Below the pieces are notes generated by a model. That model saw only the letters and a list, made by a program, of their open reading frames with translations, searched no databases and was not told the DNA's origin. From Granulosicoccus sp. (GTDB lineage: Bacteria > Pseudomonadota > Gammaproteobacteria > Granulosicoccales > Granulosicoccaceae), in assembly GCA_020627685.1 (NCBI GenBank), contig JAHDGK010000039.1, positions 1-46,009 on the forward strand: a DNA stretch of 46,009 nucleotides. The letters are read 5' to 3'. Positions 9,449-20,970 of the stretch are shown piece after piece. The number at the start of each line of letters is the position of its first letter. The stretch's first letter is position 1. Position numbers and translations under genes: made by a program.

Positions 9449-12235
9449 CTACGCTGCCTTTTGAAACTCGGAAGGTAGCAACGCTATGGCTTCTTCTATC
9501 GGGATGGGTTTGCCGATATGGTATCCCTGAGCATAGTGGACACCAATCTCCGAGAGCACATCAACGATGTCTTGGTCTTCAACAAATTCTGCAACAGTTT
9601 TAATACCCATAGACATACCCACCTGGTGAATGGCTCGCACCATTTCTCGATCTATTGGGTTTTTAGCAATTTCTTTAACGAATTGGCCATCAATTTTCAG
9701 AATATCTACCGGTAGATTTTTAAGATAGCCGAAAGAGCTCAGACCTGATCCAAAATCGTCCAACGCAACCAATGATCCCAAGCTCTTAATGCTGTTGATC
9801 AAATCTACCGCCACAGAGAACTGCGAAATAGCAGCGGTTTCTGTCAGCTCAAACCAGATCATTGTCGGGTCAACTTCATACTGAGCTAACTTCTCTTCAA
9901 TAAAGCTCTTAAGCGTTGGGTCCGCCGCAGATTGTCCTGACAAATTTATCGAAAAGCTGCAATTACTTCCAGGGCCGTCTCCGAGTGCAGCTACGGTTTT
10001 AAATGCATTCTCGATGACCCATCGATCAATCTCGGTCATTAAGTCGTAGCGTTCAGCCGCCTGTATAAACTGCCAAGGTGTGCTGATGCTGCCGTCTTCA
10101 TTTTGCAAACGCAGTAAGAATTCGTAGTGTTCTACTGCGTAGTCATTATTTTTTCGCAAACCTTCTACTGAGGCCACTGCTTGCACCACCAGTTTAAATT
10201 CATCTTGCTCTATGGCCTTCCTCAGGCGAGGCAACCAACCGAGTTCTGCTGAACGTTCGGCTATCGTGTCATCGGTTTTGGAATAAACGTAAAGGCTGTT
10301 ACGGCCCGAGTCTTTGGCTGCGTAGCAAGCCATGTCAGCAGATGCCAACACATCTTTCATGTTGTTGCACGACTGGTCTATGTGAACCACGCCAATACTG
10401 GCTCTCACAGCAAATGCTTTGTTTTCGTAGTTGAAAACATAGTTTTGGAAAAAGTCGTATACGCGTTGAGAGCGTTCCTTAACTTCCTCTTCAGTCACAT
10501 TCAGGAAGAGAAGACCGAACTCGTCGCCGCCCAATCTGGATAATATGTCGCCTTCATGAGTGAGCAGTCTGATGTTTTCAGTTAAGTCAGTCAGTAGCTG
10601 ATCACCGGCAACGTGGCCGCAAGTATCATTAATGACCTTAAATTGATCCAAGTCTAAGTAGCACAGCGCATGGTTCTTATCAGATTCTGGTAGGCCATCA
10701 ATAAGATCGCTTAACGTATTTTCAAAGTAATGTCGGTTAGTGCAACCGGTCAATGCATCATGGTTAGCTTGATACGCTAGTTTTTTCGCAAGTTGGCGCT
10801 CGTGGCTTATGTCACGCAGAACAAGTACATGTCCGGTAACACGTCCTTCTGGCGTCACAGAACTCGTTAGTGTCAAACGCAATACGAAGTCCGGATCATC
10901 CATGTCAAATGGCGTGACGTCAAATTCGTCTACGGCGTTTTCGCCCATGTTCTCTAATGCCAGTTCTACATTGAATGCAGAGTAAATATCACTGACTTGT
11001 CTGAATTTGACATAGTTGTCGAGGATTAATCCGACCGCCTCAGCAGGTGATAACTTAAACTGACGGGCAGCAGCAGGGTTTATGTGAACCACACGCATGT
11101 CAGAATCAAGAGCAATAATGGCATCTTGTACCGTGTTCAATGTCTTTTCAGCTTTGGCTCTCTCTTTCAGTAACGCATCTTGAGAATTAATTCGTTGTTG
11201 AATAGCCGTTTGTCTAGCGACGATGTAGATGGTGAACAAGGCGGTAACAGCCAGAATGCCAAACAGGGCTGTGAAAAAATACACCAAGGCGTTTTTGCTG
11301 AAGCCGACATCTTGTTGGAAGGTGAACCTCATACTTGAGTCGCCGGTATTCCATTCGGCGTCGACAACCTTTCTTAAATAAAGAGATTTCAAATAGGTTG
11401 GTTCTATTTCTTGTCCTAGACGGCCGTACAACATGGTTGTTGTCTCAGCGGTATGTATACGAGCTGTTACGTCAAACGCATTTATGCTTTGATTAATTCC
11501 AGCAAGTAACGCTTCAGTATCAATACTTATCCAGAAGCCGCCTGCAGATTGCACCTTTCTTGATTCAGCTGAGGCAGGCGCTGCCATACCTCTATAGACA
11601 GGTGCAAATAATACAAGGTCGCCACCGCTGGGCCAGCGCTCAGGAAATGTGGCAAGCAGTGGCTTGTTATTTTCCGATATCTTATCTAGCTTACGCCCTA
11701 AACTATTCACTGCAGCTAAGTCTGCACCCAATAAGCGTGCATTACCCGGCTTCAACGGTTCTAACATTGAAATAGGGTAGTACGATGAGGACTCCGGGCG
11801 CTCCTCCGACAACCCTTTTATATTGATGTCAGAGATTTTGAAATTGAATAGGCCTTGTTCACCCATGCGCTCTTCAAATGCTTCGCGATCCTTATGGGTA
11901 ACGTATTCATAGCGGCCAATACCGGTAATGAAGTCAACCTGTTCCCTGAGTTGTTCAGCGAATAGGTTCATCTCCTGACTTCCAGACGCGCTGGATGCAT
12001 AGTGAAGGCCGGTCAGTGAAGCCATGACAGTTTTGACTTCAGCGATACGGGTACTGATGTCCTGGGTGATTAAATTTGCATCTTCTTCGATGCGTGTATT
12101 TTGGTCGTGATAGTTGAGCGTGTACGTGGTGTACATCAATGCAGGTACTGCGGCAAACACCAGAAACGCTATTGAAACGAGCAGGGGTGAGCCCACAGAG
12201 TTTATCAATAGCGTTAATGGCGAGTACCTGGTCAC
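9449..12235 (-). CDS. CHASE-PAS-GGDEF-EAL sensor, c-di-GMP turnover
   Basis: A 928-residue membrane sensor. A first helix at about 18-40 and a second at about 316-341 enclose a periplasmic region. That region contains the CHASE-like stretch FITGIGRYEYV... (residues 102-135). A PAS domain (about 365-480) precedes GGDEF (motif at 569-573) and EAL (about 670-925). The cyclase site RLGGDEF is intact. The inhibitory RxxD site is replaced by HEGD (560-563), so product inhibition may be lost. The EAL signature reads EFL (705-707), but ELTE (796-799), DDFG (826-829) and the late AEFVED Glu are present, so phosphodiesterase activity is possible. The start is GTG, immediately after the TAA of the upstream binding protein, so the two are probably translated together. 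Confidence 0.92.
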   Translation of the reverse strand: MTRYSPLTLLINSVGSPLLVSIAFLVFAAVPALMYTTYTLNYHDQNTRIEEDANLITQDISTRIAEVKTVMASLTGLHYASSASGSQEMNLFAEQLREQVDFITGIGRYEYVTHKDREAFEERMGEQGLFNFKISDINIKGLSEERPESSSYYPISMLEPLKPGNARLLGADLAAVNSLGRKLDKISENNKPLLATFPERWPSGGDLVLFAPVYRGMAAPASAESRKVQSAGGFWISIDTEALLAGINQSINAFDVTARIHTAETTTMLYGRLGQEIEPTYLKSLYLRKVVDAEWNTGDSSMRFTFQQDVGFSKNALVYFFTALFGILAVTALFTIYIVARQTAIQQRINSQDALLKERAKAEKTLNTVQDAIIALDSDMRVVHINPAAARQFKLSPAEAVGLILDNYVKFRQVSDIYSAFNVELALENMGENAVDEFDVTPFDMDDPDFVLRLTLTSSVTPEGRVTGHVLVLRDISHERQLAKKLAYQANHDALTGCTNRHYFENTLSDLIDGLPESDKNHALCYLDLDQFKVINDTCGHVAGDQLLTDLTENIRLLTHEGDILSRLGGDEFGLLFLNVTEEEVKERSQRVYDFFQNYVFNYENKAFAVRASIGVVHIDQSCNNMKDVLASADMACYAAKDSGRNSLYVYSKTDDTIAERSAELGWLPRLRKAIEQDEFKLVVQAVASVEGLRKNNDYAVEHYEFLLRLQNEDGSISTPWQFIQAAERYDLMTEIDRWVIENAFKTVAALGDGPGSNCSFSINLSGQSAADPTLKSFIEEKLAQYEVDPTMIWFELTETAAISQFSVAVDLINSIKSLGSLVALDDFGSGLSSFGYLKNLPVDILKIDGQFVKEIAKNPIDREMVRAIHQVGMSMGIKTVAEFVEDQDIVDVLSEIGVHYAQGYHIGKPIPIEEAIALLPSEFQKAA

Positions 12236-13222
12236 TTATTTGTGCTTCTTTGCGTTGATCAACGTCGACTGATTCAGGTTGACCTCAGCAGCTTCCAGTA
12301 GGGGTTCGTTGATCCAAGTATCCCAACGACGATTGGTCACTAACGGAATATCAACCGCTCGAACACCATTGAGGATGGCAATCGTAGAGTCCGCTGCCCA
12401 TTCGCCATGTTCTTCCGGCACTTTGGTGTAACCAATTGCGGAGAAAGGCATCATCCATTCATGGTTAGTCATACTCAGCTTTTCGGTGTTTTCTAACACC
12501 CAATCGGTGGCCGCATCAGCATCGAACTGAGCGATACCCGAGTTACTGCCCATAACCACCATGTCGTAGTCTTGAGCCAGAAGATAACCTTCTTTCCAAT
12601 CATCGAAGTCTTCTGCAAGAATTCTATCAACAGTGATCTCTAGTTTTTCGGCGATTGATTTAACACGGTTGTAGTTTTTTATCTCGCTTAGCGTGCTTGC
12701 CCCTAAGTAGACAGCACGTGCGGCTTGATCGATAGGTAGTTTCGAAGCAAGCACACCTTCCATAAGCATGGGCTTAATCGGTGCTATCTCCACAATGCCT
12801 GTGATGTTGCTAGCCGGGAATCCGTATTCTTCTACGGTCCAGTTAATGCCAGAGAATACTACCGGTACATCTGCATCAACTAGGTGTGGAACAATCAGAT
12901 ACTTCGCGGCGTTGTCATCAGAGGTTATAACAACGTCTGGCTTAGTGTCCTGAATGAGCTCATAAGCAGCTTGTCCTGCAGCAACCTTGTTTTCAGTGGA
13001 CTTTTTCCTTTTGGTGTCCATGTAAAACTCGGTGATGTTGCACTGCTCTGCTAAACGGTCTTTAAGGCCGCGCTCTACACCGTCAGACCATGCATATCCG
13101 ACATGGTAGGAGGCCACATACAAGCAGGTTGGCTTGTTACTACTTTGGGCAAGGGTAGGGGCACTGAACACACCACACAAAGCCAATACGGAGGAAACAC
13201 CGCCAATAAATCGATTTCTCAT
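12236..13222 (-). CDS. periplasmic binding protein of the ABC-substrate-binding (COG2984-like) type
   Basis: A 328-residue protein with a Sec signal peptide (MRNRFIGG... cleaved near LAQ/SS). A two-lobed binding fold follows: CLYVASYHVGYAWSDGVERGL, then PDVVITSDDNAAKYLIVPH and VPVVFSGINW, as in the family of uncharacterised ABC substrate-binding proteins. A start at 13255 is open too, but the 11 extra residues would precede the signal peptide. No permease or ATPase is nearby. Its TAA directly abuts the GTG of the CHASE-GGDEF-EAL gene. This suggests it is a ligand receptor that reports to that sensor rather than a transport component. Confidence 0.8.
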   Translation of the reverse strand: MRNRFIGGVSSVLALCGVFSAPTLAQSSNKPTCLYVASYHVGYAWSDGVERGLKDRLAEQCNITEFYMDTKRKKSTENKVAAGQAAYELIQDTKPDVVITSDDNAAKYLIVPHLVDADVPVVFSGINWTVEEYGFPASNITGIVEIAPIKPMLMEGVLASKLPIDQAARAVYLGASTLSEIKNYNRVKSIAEKLEITVDRILAEDFDDWKEGYLLAQDYDMVVMGSNSGIAQFDADAATDWVLENTEKLSMTNHEWMMPFSAIGYTKVPEEHGEWAADSTIAILNGVRAVDIPLVTNRRWDTWINEPLLEAAEVNLNQSTLINAKKHK

Positions 13223-13412
13223 ATTTTCTGACTCACATCTAAGGTCGAACCTCACGGTGAGGCGACAATGAGTCAGATATCGGCTAATTTCGAAAAGGGT
13301 GTATAACTTTTGGGTATCTTCTGAGCCGAAATTGAGTGAAAATACTATACTAAAGTTGAATTTGTGATGTAATTCTAGCTTTTAGGGCAGTATTCGTTCG
13401 ACCAAGTAACCC

Positions 13413-14619: not shown

Positions 14620-16110
14620 TTAATGACTCATCATATCGTCAAGCGCGCCCGGTTTGTCGTGAACTGCTAGCTGATCCACAATTGTTTCGCTAGCTTCATT
14701 CAAACCGATAATTTCTACTTCACTGCCTTCGCGACGGAATTTCATAACCACCATGTCGAGCGCCTGAACGCTACTGATGTCCCAGATATGCGCCAGACTG
14801 ACATCAATCACGACAGTATCCAGAGCTTCTTTAAAATCAAAAGAGGCGGTGAACTCATCGCTGGATGCAAAAAACAATTGACCTTCCACGAGATAGGTGC
14901 GTTTCAGTCCATCCTCTGAAAGCGTGCTGGTAACACGAAAAATCTGTGAGATCTTCCAGGCGAAAAAGATACCTGAAAATAGAACACCGACCAGTACGCC
15001 GATGGCCAGGTTATGGGTGGCGACAACAACAATTACGGTTGCCAGCATGACGATCGATGAGCTTCGAGGATGATCCCTGAGGTTCAGTAGTGACGACCAG
15101 CTGAACGTTCCAATGGATACCATGATCATTATGGCGACCAGTGCTGCCATGGGAATTTGTTTAACCCAGTCGCCAAGAAATACGATCATGAGCAACAAAA
15201 ATAATCCGGCGCAGAAAGTGGATAAACGACCTCGGCCACCTGATTTCACATTAATGATTGACTGGCCGATCATTGCGCAGCCTGCCATACCACCGATAAA
15301 ACCGGTGGCTGTATTAGCAATCCCCTGACCGATACATTCGCGATTCTTATCGCTTCGCGTGTCAGTGAGTTCGTCAACAATAGATGCTGTCATCAGGGAC
15401 TCTAATAAGCCCACGGCGGCAACTGCTGCGGAGTAAGGCAGGATAATTTGTAGAGTTTCCAGATTCAAAGGAATATCTGGCAACAAGAAAATGGGCAGGC
15501 TATCTGGCAGCTCTCCCATATCACCCACGGTTCGAATATCCAGTCCCATTGCAAGAGACACTGCTGTGAGAACAATGATGCAAATAAGAGGGGATGGCAC
15601 TACTGAGGTTACCCTCGGGAGCAAATAAATAATGGCCAAGCCTGCGGCTACCATGATGTACGTTAAATTCGGTACATCGATAAGCTCAGGCAGTTGAGCC
15701 ATAAAAATGAGTATGGCAAGCGCGTTAACAAACCCGGTCATTACCGATCGGGACACAAAGCGCATGACAGCACCCAGCTTTAATAAGCCTGCGACAATTT
15801 GCAGAAGACCCGCCAATACCGTGGCTGCCAGTAAATACTGCAGTCCGTGGTCCTTGACTAGCGTTACCATAAGCACGGCGGTCGCCGCCGTCGCTGCCGA
15901 GATCATTCCGGGACGGCCGCCCGTGATGGATACGATGACCGCAATAGAGAACGAGGCATACAGGCCCACTTTAGGGTCTACGCCGGCAATGATAGAAAAG
16001 GCGATAGCTTCTGGGATAAGCGCAAGCGCTACAACCAATCCTGCGAGGATATCGGCTCGAATATTGCCAAACCATTCCAATTGCCAACGGGCGATAGAAT
16101 CTGTATTCAC
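14620..16110 (-). CDS. SulP family inorganic anion transporter with STAS domain
   Basis: A 496-residue inner-membrane protein. About ten to twelve hydrophobic helices occupy residues 15-390. Family motifs are [21 protein letters not shown] near the N-terminus and a central [22 protein letters not shown]. The C-terminal STAS domain is at about 400-490 ([22 protein letters not shown]). SulP proteins move sulfate, bicarbonate or other anions by proton or sodium symport, and which one applies here is not evident. The start is GTG at 16110 with no obvious Shine-Dalgarno sequence. The next gene is a tandem Usp protein only 15 bases downstream. Confidence 0.92.
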
Positions 16111-16512
16111 GATAGGGTTCTGTACTCGAAATGTTGTGTAATGCTATGCACGCTGCAGGCCTTGATGGGCATTTGGACGACAACGGCGGTGTGCAAAGCC
16201 ATCAATACTCATAAATAAGCAATAAAAGGCTGGCCTGTCGTATACTTAGAGTTAGTAGGTCACTGCAGAGTTGTGGGACACGGACTGTAGCGCATAGATG
16301 CGTGTTGTGGTGAGACCTGAGAGCGATTGACCTTTGCCTGAGAGGTAATGCAGCCAGAAATCTAAAAAGATCACTGGATTTGCTTGGAAGTCGCGTTACA
16401 TGGCGGGATGGTGCCGCCCCCTTTATTACCCATTCCGTGGTGCTAAGCATCAGACGGCTTAATGGCATCAAATGTACGAAAGTTATAGAAAACTCAAGGT
16501 GATAGAAGACGT
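16111..16512. other. 402-base divergent region with possible structured leader
   Basis: No convincing gene on either strand. A minus-strand open frame here (16202-16585) has no family resemblance and runs into the next gene. On the plus strand TATACT (16241-16246) could be a -10 box. Downstream, several complementary segments could fold: AGGTC 16257 region with GACCT 16314-16318, ACACG 16278-16282 with CGTGT 16301-16305, and GGCGG 16402-16406 with CCGCC 16414-16418. No known riboswitch or small RNA was recognised. Confidence 0.45.
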
Positions 16513-17718
16513 ATGACGAACAGTGAGTTGCCGGCTTCGGAGTCCAATTCGGGCGGAAGATCAGCGGAAGGTCAATCAGAATCATCTTCGGGAAATAACC
16601 CGCAGCGTCGCAATCAACGTGGCCGGAATCGTCAGAACAATAACGGCGGGCAGCGTGCGGAAGGTGGAAATAACCGCAACAGAAACAAGCGGAATCCGCG
16701 CAACAATCGAAATCGCCCTCGCGATAACGACGATATCGGTAATCGCATCGGCCCTGGTAACAGGGCGCTGAGACCGCCTCGCGAAATTACCGAAGAGATG
16801 GATAACATCGGCAACCGAGCGTTGCCTGAGCCTGCAACGGCAATCGAATACGACGACGATAATTTCGGTAATCGCGATCATTTCAATGTTAATAATCGTT
16901 TTCCATCCGATAGCAATCTCATTGGCATGGAAGATCCCTACCAAGTCGGTAGCTTAGTGATGGGGGGCAATTCCCGCTCGCAAGGTAACCGTGGCAAAGG
17001 TCGCGGTAATCAAAATCGGCGACAGCAGGGCCAGGGGCAAGGGCAGGGTCAGCAACGCGGCCAGAGAAACAATCAGGCGCGTACCAATAATCGCAATAAT
17101 CAGAATAGGAATAATCAAAACCGGAACAAGCAGCGCGCTGCTGGCTCCGAAGACGGCCAAGGCGGCAATCAAAACCCCGGACAGAACCGGAACCGCAACC
17201 AGAATCGCAACCGTAATCAGAACCGCAATAGAAATCAAAACCGGAATCCTCGTTCGCAGAATGAGGCGAATTCTGAGTCGGGTCCGACCTCTGGAACGTC
17301 GGCGTCATCAACTCCTGAACAAGCATCAAACACGGCTCCAGTGCAAAATAGCAGCAACGCTGTTGTGTCGTCGCCAGCCAACACGCCGGTAACCTCGGTT
17401 AAGTCGCCGGCACCGGCCACCGCGCCCAGTGCTCCAACTGATGCAGCTGGCGCGCCGGTGAAAAAGCCGCGCGCACCTAGAAAACCCAAGGTTGCTGCCG
17501 AGGCCTCCGAGAGCGCTAAACCTGCTGCAAAAAAGACACGGGCAAAAGCTGCAACGGCTGCAACTGATACGTCTGCCGAAAGCGCACCGGTTAAAAAGAC
17601 AAGGGCAGTGAAGAAGAAAGCCAGCACTAAGGCTGCCTCTTCAGACGGCGCTAAGACTAAGTCGAAAGTTGCTGCGAAGCCAAGAGCAAAAAAGCCCCCT
17701 GCGGATACCACTGAGTAG
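16513..17718 (+). CDS. low-complexity Asn/Arg-rich protein with Lys/Ala histone-like tail, unknown function
   Basis: A 401-residue protein, predicted by eye to be almost wholly disordered. Residues 1-75 are Asn/Arg/Gly-rich. Residues 75-150 are more acidic and contain three GNR units (DIGNRIGPGNRAL, DNIGNRALPEP, DNFGNRDHF). Residues 155-250 are Gly/Arg/Gln/Asn repeats with QNRNRN units. A Ser/Thr/Pro/Ala linker follows to about 310. The last 90 residues carry repeated KKxRA/KPRAPRKPK blocks like bacterial histone-H1-like tails. There is no signal peptide or membrane segment. Strong positive charge suggests binding to RNA or DNA (inference). Resemblance to disordered arms of RNase E or Rho is only compositional. 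It has no same-strand neighbour and a 402-base upstream region. Confidence 0.75.
   Translation: MTNSELPASESNSGGRSAEGQSESSSGNNPQRRNQRGRNRQNNNGGQRAEGGNNRNRNKRNPRNNRNRPRDNDDIGNRIGPGNRALRPPREITEEMDNIGNRALPEPATAIEYDDDNFGNRDHFNVNNRFPSDSNLIGMEDPYQVGSLVMGGNSRSQGNRGKGRGNQNRRQQGQGQGQGQQRGQRNNQARTNNRNNQNRNNQNRNKQRAAGSEDGQGGNQNPGQNRNRNQNRNRNQNRNRNQNRNPRSQNEANSESGPTSGTSASSTPEQASNTAPVQNSSNAVVSSPANTPVTSVKSPAPATAPSAPTDAAGAPVKKPRAPRKPKVAAEASESAKPAAKKTRAKAATAATDTSAESAPVKKTRAVKKKASTKAASSDGAKTKSKVAAKPRAKKPPADTTE
17182..17247 (+). repeat. QNRNRN-coding tandem repeat
   Basis: Three 18-base units and one partial 12-base unit encode QNRNRN three times and then QNRN (residues 224-245 of the disordered protein). Arg is written as CGG, CGC, CGT and AGA and Asn as AAC and AAT across units. 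The repeat is therefore better kept at protein than at DNA level. Confidence 0.85.
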
Positions 17719-19557: not shown

Positions 19558-20970
19558 TTAGCGACCAAATGTATCCAAAGCCAGTAAGTTTGTGGACTTT
19601 CCGCGTTTTGCCGGTATGGCTGTCGCGTTGCATTCGTTTTTAAGACGGGTGCTCAAAGCATCCATGGCCTTTCTTTCACCGTGTACCAGCAATGCCGGTG
19701 GTGAGTTTTCGAAACTTCGGTACCAGTCGACCATGCCTTGTTGATCGGCATGAGCGGACAAGCCGCCCACCGTATGGATACTGGCCCGCACTTGTATTTT
19801 GTCGCCCCATATTTTTACGCTCTTAGCACCATCTACCAGTTTACGTCCCAATGAGCCCGGCGATTGATAGCCTGAGATGATGACGTGGGCATCTTGCCGC
19901 CACAGATTGTGCTTGAGGTGGTGCATGATGCGTCCGCCTGTGCACATGCCACTGCCTGCGATGACGATAGCGCCTGAAGCCATCTGATTGATAGCTCGCG
20001 ATTCGTCAGCAGTTTGAGAGAACTTAAGGTTGGGCATGGCTAGTAGTGGACCGTTCTTACGGTAATAAGCGGCGGCTTCCTCGTCATATAAGTTGGTATG
20101 TTTTAAATAGACTTCGCTTGCCCGGATTGCCATTGGGCTGTCCAGAAAAATATTCCAGCGACCCAAATCCCACTCGTCAAAATACCGCGCCATGGTGTAG
20201 AGAATCATCTGACTTCGACCGACGGAAAAAGCCGGAATCAGAATATTACCGCGCACACTGCTAAGAGCACTGGCAATTTCGCTCACCTCCACTAACGTTT
20301 CCGACCAATCGCGATGTAAACGATTGCCGTAGGTGCTTTCCATCAGCACCATGTCCGCATTTTTTAAATAACTGAAATCACGAAGGATAGGTGAGCCTCG
20401 ATGACCCAGGTCTCCACTAAAGACCACCGTTCGAGTGTTTTGGCCGTTGGTTAATGTCAGCTCAACCATCGATGAGCCCAGAATATGCCCCGCATCAAAT
20501 AGTCGGATGGAAACTCCGTTGGCAATCTCCCGAGGCGTTTCGTATTCCAACGCTTCGAGTCGATCCATGGTGTTTTCAACATCACTCTGGTCGTATAGAG
20601 GCTTTAACAGGGGTTTGCCCGATCGGCGTCGGCGTTTGTTTCTGTATTCCACATCACGGGCGTTTAGGTGAGCTGAGTCTTTTAGAAGAATTTGTACTAA
20701 ATCGCAGGTGGCTATGTGGGTATGGATTTTTCCCGTGAAGCCCTGATCGATAAGCATGGGTAAACGGCCGCAATGATCAATATGTGCATGGCTGAGAACG
20801 ACAGCATCCAGTTCGGCCGGATTAAACGGGAAACCGTCGTGATTTCTCAGTTCGTCCTTTTTCCTACCTTGTATGAGGCCGCAGTCGAGTAAAATCTTAG
20901 TGTTGCCCAGCTCTATAAGATGGCAAGAGCCTGTGACTTCCTCCGCGGCACCGTAACTTGTCAGTTTCAT
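19558..20970 (-). CDS. MBL-fold metallo-hydrolase with beta-CASP and RMMBL domains (RNA-processing type)
   Basis: A 470-residue protein. The metallo-beta-lactamase core has HAHIDHCGRLP (metal-binding HxHxDH, about residues 61-66), FDAGHILGSSMVEL and VVFSGDLGHRGSPIL with the later His and Asp ligands. The beta-CASP insert follows (NILIPAFSVGRSQMIL, MCTGGRIMHHL). The C-terminal HTVGGLSAHADQQGMVDWY and PALLVHGE match the RMMBL region. Members of this CPSF73-like family are zinc-dependent RNA endonucleases or exonucleases. Some bacterial copies have no known substrate. The flanking genes do not specify a pathway. Confidence 0.92.
   Translation of the reverse strand: MKLTSYGAAEEVTGSCHLIELGNTKILLDCGLIQGRKKDELRNHDGFPFNPAELDAVVLSHAHIDHCGRLPMLIDQGFTGKIHTHIATCDLVQILLKDSAHLNARDVEYRNKRRRRSGKPLLKPLYDQSDVENTMDRLEALEYETPREIANGVSIRLFDAGHILGSSMVELTLTNGQNTRTVVFSGDLGHRGSPILRDFSYLKNADMVLMESTYGNRLHRDWSETLVEVSEIASALSSVRGNILIPAFSVGRSQMILYTMARYFDEWDLGRWNIFLDSPMAIRASEVYLKHTNLYDEEAAAYYRKNGPLLAMPNLKFSQTADESRAINQMASGAIVIAGSGMCTGGRIMHHLKHNLWRQDAHVIISGYQSPGSLGRKLVDGAKSVKIWGDKIQVRASIHTVGGLSAHADQQGMVDWYRSFENSPPALLVHGERKAMDALSTRLKNECNATAIPAKRGKSTNLLALDTFGR

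Follow-up and report, generated by a model that had tools for sequence, protein, structure and literature searches.

What can a protein do that has no folded domain and no enzyme attached to it? The question is raised by an open reading frame of a Granulosicoccus genome, located at 16513-17718 on the plus strand of the window (the whole analysed stretch of DNA, 46,009 nucleotides). The frame, whose coordinates include the stop codon, begins with ATG and runs through 401 codons without internal stops, and orthologues of it were found. An earlier note on this DNA had described a frame of 401 residues with an Asn/Arg-rich N-terminus, GNR units, a QNRN repeat and a Lys/Ala tail; the open frame was confirmed, and all of these parts were located in the translation. 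The protein is real, conserved, clade-restricted and disordered, and it carries a motif module tied to poly(A) polymerase.

A disordered protein with a conserved acidic core

The commonest residues of the protein are Asn (15.5%), Ala and Arg (11.5% each), Ser (9.5%) and Gly (9.0%), and Lys and Arg together number 70 against 34 for Asp and Glu. GNR units lie at residues 76, 82, 100 and 119, with one more at 158. QNRN occurs six times in residues 197-242, and KK[PT]RA or KPRA blocks are found at residues 317, 340, 361 and 389. The protein matched no family of Pfam or NCBIfam at E ≤ 0.001. The PF01743 head and the PcnB family models gave no match in these two collections, nor did the RNase E/G catalytic domain PF10150 in Pfam, and the protein belongs to neither RNase E nor PcnB. 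AlphaFold2, given an alignment of eight sequences (the protein and seven orthologues), produced a model with a mean pLDDT of 44.5 in which none of the 401 residues reaches 70, and the secondary-structure program returned nothing on this model. Charge and hydropathy put the whole chain on the disordered side, and likewise every region apart from the Ser/Ala/Thr linker. A search of solved structures with the core gave no match at E ≤ 10. The absence of a folded domain, which had been claimed from the start, is thus borne out by the family searches and the model, and no known folded family was recovered.

In nine orthologues (36 pairs, with pS near saturation throughout at 0.74-0.80), pN/pS is below 1 in every region and equals 0.108 in a net acidic core module, residues 72-150 (16726-16962, plus strand), versus 0.48-0.78 in the other regions. 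The core is a cluster of acidic-x-GNR motifs followed by NVNNRFPSDSNLIGMEDPYQVGSLV. Its GNR array, residues 72-106 (16726-16830, plus strand), comprises DDIGNR, GNRAL and MDNIGNRALPE, has a pN/pS of 0.101 and gives the best match to the PcnB tails described below. The second block, residues 117-150 (16861-16962, plus strand), reads NFGNRDHFNVNNRFPSDSNLIGMEDPYQVGSLVM and is the most constrained part at 0.052; residues 107-116 have 0.330. This contrast indicates that selection is strongest on the acidic-x-GNR array and on NFGNRD-x-x-NVNNRFPSDSNLIGMEDPYQVGSLV. In the alignment of the nine orthologues the core is free of gaps at the window positions, and a stretch slightly wider than residues 72-150 has a mean column identity of 83% over 10 genomes. 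The chain had been taken to be composition-biased throughout; this does not hold for the acidic GNR part, which is a sequence-specific core. A stretch that stays conserved within a disordered chain usually marks a short linear motif by which a partner is bound.

The charged blocks of the protein are under weaker constraint. All on the plus strand, they are the N-terminal Asn/Arg/Gly region (residues 1-68, 16513-16716; net charge +9, pN/pS 0.486) and the Asn/Arg/Gln/Gly region with the QNRN repeats (residues 151-250, 16963-17262; net charge +20, pN/pS 0.487), both presumed to bind RNA, and the Lys/Ala/Pro tail with the KK[PT]RA blocks (residues 313-401, 17449-17715; net charge +18, pN/pS 0.483), in which KPRAPRK is invariant in eight aligned sequences. 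The Ser/Ala/Thr/Pro linker (residues 251-312, 17263-17448, plus strand) is the least constrained, with a pN/pS of 0.782 and a pooled pairwise identity of 20%. Orthologous open frames in eight other genomes are 436-478 aa long and contain no stops. Together with a pN/pS below 1 in each region, this indicates that the 401-aa frame is more than a chance one. Two diverged proteins, in genomes G003 and G017, have 343 codons open and keep DDRGNRL and NINNRFPSDSNLL, with little else of the core; N[VI]NNRFPSDSNL is retained in both.

Upstream of the gene, a candidate -10 box TATACT at 16241-16246 (plus strand) was aligned by eye in seven of nine upstream regions, and TACAAT replaces it in the other two. 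With this box the leader would measure about 260 nt; TATACT at this position was not among the promoters listed by the scan. The pattern GTGAGACCTGAGAG-GAT--ACCTTTGCC (16310-16338) is kept in five of the nine upstream regions and not in the other four, the five having been hand-picked for a second alignment. A known RNA in the leader was considered and rejected: Rfam gave no match in the window at gathering score, and the hits within 16080-16560 have E-values of 0.78 and 5.3. A structured leader was rejected too, with a fold z-score of -0.29 and 74 of 200 shuffles folding as well.

The core module in poly(A) polymerase tails

That the protein is not attached to a known enzyme, as had been stated, is true of the clade to which the source genome belongs, but elsewhere a homologous module is carried by the poly(A) polymerase PcnB. 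Genes of the poly(A) polymerase family (PF01743) were found in 14 genomes. In all four genomes of a second clade (G002, G009, G021 and G025), PcnB ends in a low-complexity tail with the module. Counted from the landmark LA[DE]WWT, these tails are 283, 307, 314 and 349 residues long, respectively (that of G025 was found by a module profile), and their composition suggests that they are disordered. The enzymes of G002, G025 and the source genome were identified as PcnB by TIGR01942 above its cut-off, and those of G009 and G021 by PF01743. Downstream of the PcnB genes lie folK-like and nucleoside kinase-like genes (named by eye). The profile search found no free-standing match in the four PcnB-tail genomes.

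Three motifs follow one another in the PcnB tails: D-[DN]-x-GN[RQ], then H-[ED]-NWD-[DE]-DN-[FR]-GNRA-[LVI]-P-[ED]-E, and then IYD-[DE]-IQP-x-x-N-x-NRD-x-x-EL-[LF]-G. Their order fits that of the free core, namely GNR, about 20 residues, DN-x-GNRALPE, an acidic stretch, NRD and L-x-G. The tails also carry a KKT[AS] stretch and additional basic arms. We aligned A2, a profile of free-standing cores only (10 rows), with A4, the alignment of PcnB tails. It turned out that hhalign gave a score of 37.9 (P 1.2e-6) over 52 columns, ending before NNRFP. Column shuffles of A4 scored 10.7 on average and 24.1 at most, and none of the 200 was as good as the real alignment. Single PcnB tails scored 41.8, 31.6, 36.0 and 26.8 at the module. 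For comparison, six RNase E tails from the same family, which are N/R/G-rich, were cut into 72 windows, and these scored at most 14.2. By sequence comparison, the free core and the PcnB tail module are homologous, beyond any likeness of composition. NNRFPSDSNL is faint in the PcnB tails, where it appears as NRD..EL.G, and it lies outside the hhalign match; the shared part is thus chiefly the GNR array.

Across 48 family genomes, no enzyme other than PcnB was found to carry the module. A tail with the module is absent from the PcnB of the source genome (on contig C65) and from that of G014, G023, G003, G017, G015, G031, G029 and G040; the N/G/K-rich tail of the G005 PcnB, though long, contains a lone GNR and no module. 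In the PcnB frame of the source genome (L242, 337-1998), a Lys/Ser-rich stretch precedes the catalytic head, which begins at codon 121. RNase E was surveyed as a second carrier. The module was not seen in seven RNase E proteins (one per genome), in which the last 620 residues were inspected and GNR was counted over the whole frame, the protein of G009 ending at the contig edge. Since N/R/G-rich tails are also found on RNase E in the genus, the composition of the arms is not specific. Five of these RNase E tails (L234, L235, L237, L238 and L239) share RQPS[QE]LK[SG][TS]VRSLA by eye, and further on [FL]AS[RK]K-x-[PA]D occurs in four of the five and in the RNase E tail of L236; both may be uncharacterised partner-binding motifs. 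Among the matches listed in literature searches on Granulosicoccus disorder, on polyadenylation and RNase E, and on PcnB disorder and the degradosome, no description of the GNR motif was found.

Occurrence and neighbourhood of the gene

A pattern search of the genome collection returned 184 matching stretches, eight of which encode a relative, and all relatives found are labelled Granulosicoccus. These eight are the same records as eight of the genomes in the later searches and are not independent of them. With A2, matches at E ≤ 0.001 were obtained in 15 of the 48 family genomes: 11 close free-standing orthologues (E 1.6e-51 or lower) and four weaker ones, which are the diverged free-standing proteins of G003 and G017 and the PcnB tails of G002 and G028. 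On 369 genomes of the class, A2 matched three, all Granulosicoccus, with the source genome among them. A further profile, A3, was built with the two diverged proteins and the G002, G009 and G021 tails among its sequences; its matches to these five genomes therefore arise by construction. The only new PcnB finds with A3 were G025 (E 7.3e-16) and G028, which belongs to another genus (E 0.006). In G028 the GNR motifs stand at the end of the PcnB tail (E 9.3e-5 with A2), a stop lies inside both matches, and the genome is counted among the A2 matches and outside the genus tally given below.

At E ≤ 0.05, A3 matched the same three Granulosicoccus among the 369 class genomes, plus G269 and G144. The last two were rejected: G269 (E 0.019) has stops in frame, and G144 (E 0.049) is a long frame without the GNR module. 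Also dropped, as low complexity or chance, were 30 residues of the NRN region in G020 (E 5.8e-4) and matches in G033 (E 0.48) and G034 (E 0.68). No relatives were present among 187 examined stretches of viral contigs, and plasmids gave no match to the protein. Within the source genome, a GNR pattern had 50 matches, three of them in this gene, against 40 for a control pattern, so the count is near chance. Thirty of the matches came with loci and 20 were fetched, the GNR-reading ones being inspected in frame; among those listed and fetched, only this gene reads GNR in an N/R-rich, disordered-looking frame (by eye). A stricter pattern had two matches, one being this gene, and its controls had one and three.

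In the A3 search of 27 genus genomes, the module was free-standing in 13, in a PcnB tail in four, in both forms in none and in neither in ten; the profile search opens with a loose first look, so these absences are not absolute. Eight of the ten genomes with neither form are less than 90% complete. With ten of 27 genomes having neither form, the function is dispensable or served in another way. In a tree of ETF-QO from 30 genomes (one gene, midpoint-rooted), the 13 free-standing genomes form one clade (100/99) and the four PcnB-tail genomes another (100/100). Eight of the ten genomes with neither form group with the 13 and not with the four; from G007 and G016, which also have neither, no ETF-QO was obtained, and they are outside the tree. 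The non-overlapping distribution thus rests on two clades, that is, on few independent events. The earlier note had named missing or disrupted copies in close relatives as a sign against the gene. All 13 clade genomes carry it with no stop within the match; in the other 14 of the 27 genus genomes, the profile search did not find the free-standing gene.

The neighbours of the gene, whose constancy had also been proposed as a check, are the same on one side and mostly so on the other. In the window, a SulP permease gene lies upstream and is divergent, and SulP adjoins the gene, or a helicase gene next to it, at all 12 other free-standing loci checked. A convergent ETF-QO gene was found on the other side at nine of these 12. 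At loci L009 and L150 further genes stand between the protein gene and ETF-QO, and at L149 the coordinates place ETF-QO just beyond the region examined. Two loci, L006 and L008, are without ETF-QO; it is on the same contig some kilobases off in G001 and on a different contig in G019. In G003 and G017, a helicase gene lies between SulP and the protein gene, directly upstream of the latter and on the same strand. RhlE is the best NCBIfam match of these helicases, below the cut-off (595.5 and 608.2 against 743). At the ten loci besides the window, G003 and G017, the gene immediately upstream is SulP and not an RNA gene, and around the orthologous helicases of eight other genomes the gene of the disordered protein was not found within 1.5 kb or less on either side.

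Among 20 ETF-QO-adjacent regions from other genomes, the gene is present only in G003 and G017, the regions of G020 and G002 being too short to judge. Of the 18 regions from genomes that lack the gene, 15 were compared again (the three short ones being left out), and in none of these does SulP adjoin ETF-QO; the SulP/ETF-QO arrangement is thus particular to the free-standing clade. When L149 and L150 are set beside L152-L168, the SulP/ETF-QO block seems rearranged between the clade and other genomes. Some further genes were noticed. A Beta-CASP/RMMBL metallo-hydrolase beside ETF-QO in the window (19558-20970) has as its best NCBIfam matches type VII Cas14 (392.8, cut-off 800) and aCPSF1 (268.9, cut-off 580.2), and its product is probably an ordinary beta-CASP nuclease. 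On the minus strand at 9449-13255, the gene of an ABC_sub_bind protein comes immediately before that of a CHASE-PAS-GGDEF-EAL protein, and the two are perhaps a ligand-sensing pair. Near the ETF-QO of G028 (L160, 392-4864) there is a large CheB/CheR-type PAS histidine kinase fusion, named by eye.

Possible role and comparison with known systems

We propose, with a probability of roughly 0.55, that the protein is a free-standing, fully disordered adapter of RNA decay, whose arms would hold RNA and whose core would dock a partner. Judging from composition, the Asn/Arg/Gln- and Lys/Ala-rich arms may hold RNA, and the acidic-x-GNR/NNRFPSDSNL core may be an array of short linear motifs that docks a partner from the machinery of polyadenylation-dependent decay. 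In the PcnB-tail clade, the module lies beyond the arginine-rich domain of PcnB and would act in cis; in the free-standing clade, the tails of the PcnB proteins inspected are short and basic, and there the module would be supplied in trans. The likeliest partner would be a shared hub such as RNase E, an RhlE-type DEAD-box helicase or PNPase, and docking on it would bring RNA, PcnB and helicase together. PcnB itself is also among the candidate partners. The adapter reading is supported by the strongly constrained core inside a loosely constrained disordered protein and by the linkage to the RhlE-like helicase gene in G003 and G017. A link to RNA decay had been suggested in the earlier note, and the PcnB-tail module and this upstream helicase gene lend it independent support. 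Condensate formation, likewise raised there, may occur. Proteins fused in one lineage and separate in another are a pattern from which functional partnership is inferred. In a simple history, the module would have belonged to the tail of an ancestral PcnB, would have disappeared from that enzyme and would persist in one clade as a gene of its own; the move may also have gone the other way.

Binding of this kind is known from RNase E and PAP I. According to excerpts of PMC4435900, residues 501-843 of E. coli RNase E bind PAP I, residues 791-843 bind CsdA, SrmB and RhlE, and the noncatalytic region is ANR-/RNQ-rich. PAP I carries binding regions for RNase E, RhlB or Hfq (PMC9764084, in excerpt). 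In P. aeruginosa RNase E, the short motif NDPR binds PNPase and AR1 binds RhlB, and RNA is bound by the AR1, AR4 and REER repeats, which also drive foci (PMC11964227, in excerpt). One PcnB domain bears the Pfam name 'Probable RNA and SrmB- binding site of polymerase A'. PAP I may also bind RhlE and SrmB directly, but this forms no part of our argument. To our knowledge, the known degradosome scaffolds are enzyme tails, chiefly that of RNase E. It is conceivable, at somewhat less than even odds, that the GNR module is a transferable docking array of short linear motifs, which as a PcnB tail or as a gene of its own yields a trans scaffold without a catalytic domain, a second one beside RNase E and linked to polyadenylation. 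If this is true, docking arrays can be detached and act in trans, here with a poly(A) polymerase tail module as its own gene, and there is a concrete handle on the coupling of bacterial polyadenylation to other RNA decay. Because fused and free forms replace one another in nature, the hypothesis can be tested directly.

It is possible, if rather unlikely, that the GNR array is an address tag shared by PcnB and this protein, which binds RNase E, PNPase, Hfq or the ribosome, and that the protein acts as an RNA chaperone or condensate scaffold of a general kind, with no special tie to polyadenylation. One module in two proteins is the outcome to be expected from such a tag, the gene in G003 and G017 adjoins a helicase and not pcnB, and the arms resemble in composition the ANR-rich RNase E tails described in the excerpted PMC4435900. 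However, PcnB is the only module-bearing enzyme found in the 48 family genomes, and no genome was found with both forms, which fits replacement better than independent clients of one hub.

Two other readings seem improbable to us. The core could bind PcnB itself, folding back on the catalytic head in cis and doing likewise in trans, and the protein would then be a regulator of poly(A) polymerase, an activator or a brake, and not a bridge. Fusion in one clade and separation in the other is a classical sign of direct interaction, and the two forms do not overlap in their distribution; the additional basic arms of the tail, however, exceed the needs of an autoregulatory peptide. The other reading is a nucleoid or DNA-binding protein, whose Lys/Ala/Pro tail compacts or organises DNA in the manner of histone H1-like or AlgP-type proteins. 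Nucleoid organisation, raised in the earlier note, is unproven, and the Lys/Ala tail, with its KK[PT]RA/KPRA blocks, its net charge of +18 in residues 313-401 and the invariant KPRAPRK, is the sole point in its favour. This tail is weakly constrained (pN/pS 0.48), whereas the constrained part is the acidic core, and no Pfam family was matched. Moreover, the module is common to the RNA enzyme PcnB, and the KKT[AS] of the PcnB tails means that such a stretch occurs on an RNA enzyme. Although the linker and arms evolve fast (pN/pS 0.48-0.78) and the gene was not found in 14 of the 27 genus genomes, a neutral or decaying spacer, that is, a functionless disordered frame left after a PcnB tail was cut off, is very improbable: the core is constrained (0.108 overall and 0.052 in residues 117-150), which already speaks against such a spacer, and no stop occurs within the match in the 13 clade genomes.

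The adapter reading can be set against three known systems. With AlgP and histone H1-like proteins the protein shares a basic Lys/Ala/Pro-rich tail, no Pfam or NCBIfam model being matched, but only the last 89 residues are of this type, and the constrained part is acidic. With the PcnB tails it shares the homologous GNR module at similar spacing, the N/R-rich arms and KKT[AS]. The tail, in contrast, belongs to an enzyme at least about 675-690 residues long, and in the free-standing protein GNRAL and NNRFPSDSNL elements come in addition and the Lys/Ala tail is longer. In gamma-proteobacteria, the noncatalytic arm of RNase E, as far as the excerpts of PMC4435900 and PMC11964227 describe it, is likewise disordered and ANR-/RNQ-rich (the top residues of our protein are N, A and R), with short conserved motifs amid variable repeats and basic stretches that possibly hold RNA. 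Unlike this arm, the 401-aa protein is not attached to a nuclease, RNase E with a tail of its own is encoded elsewhere in the source genome (two PF10150 genes, on C62 and C65), and none of the RNase E tails inspected showed the GNR/NNRFP core. The RNase E arm binds RNA and partners through short linear motifs, and the conserved core of the 401-aa protein would be compatible with this mode of binding. The protein probably works like a detached degradosome arm.
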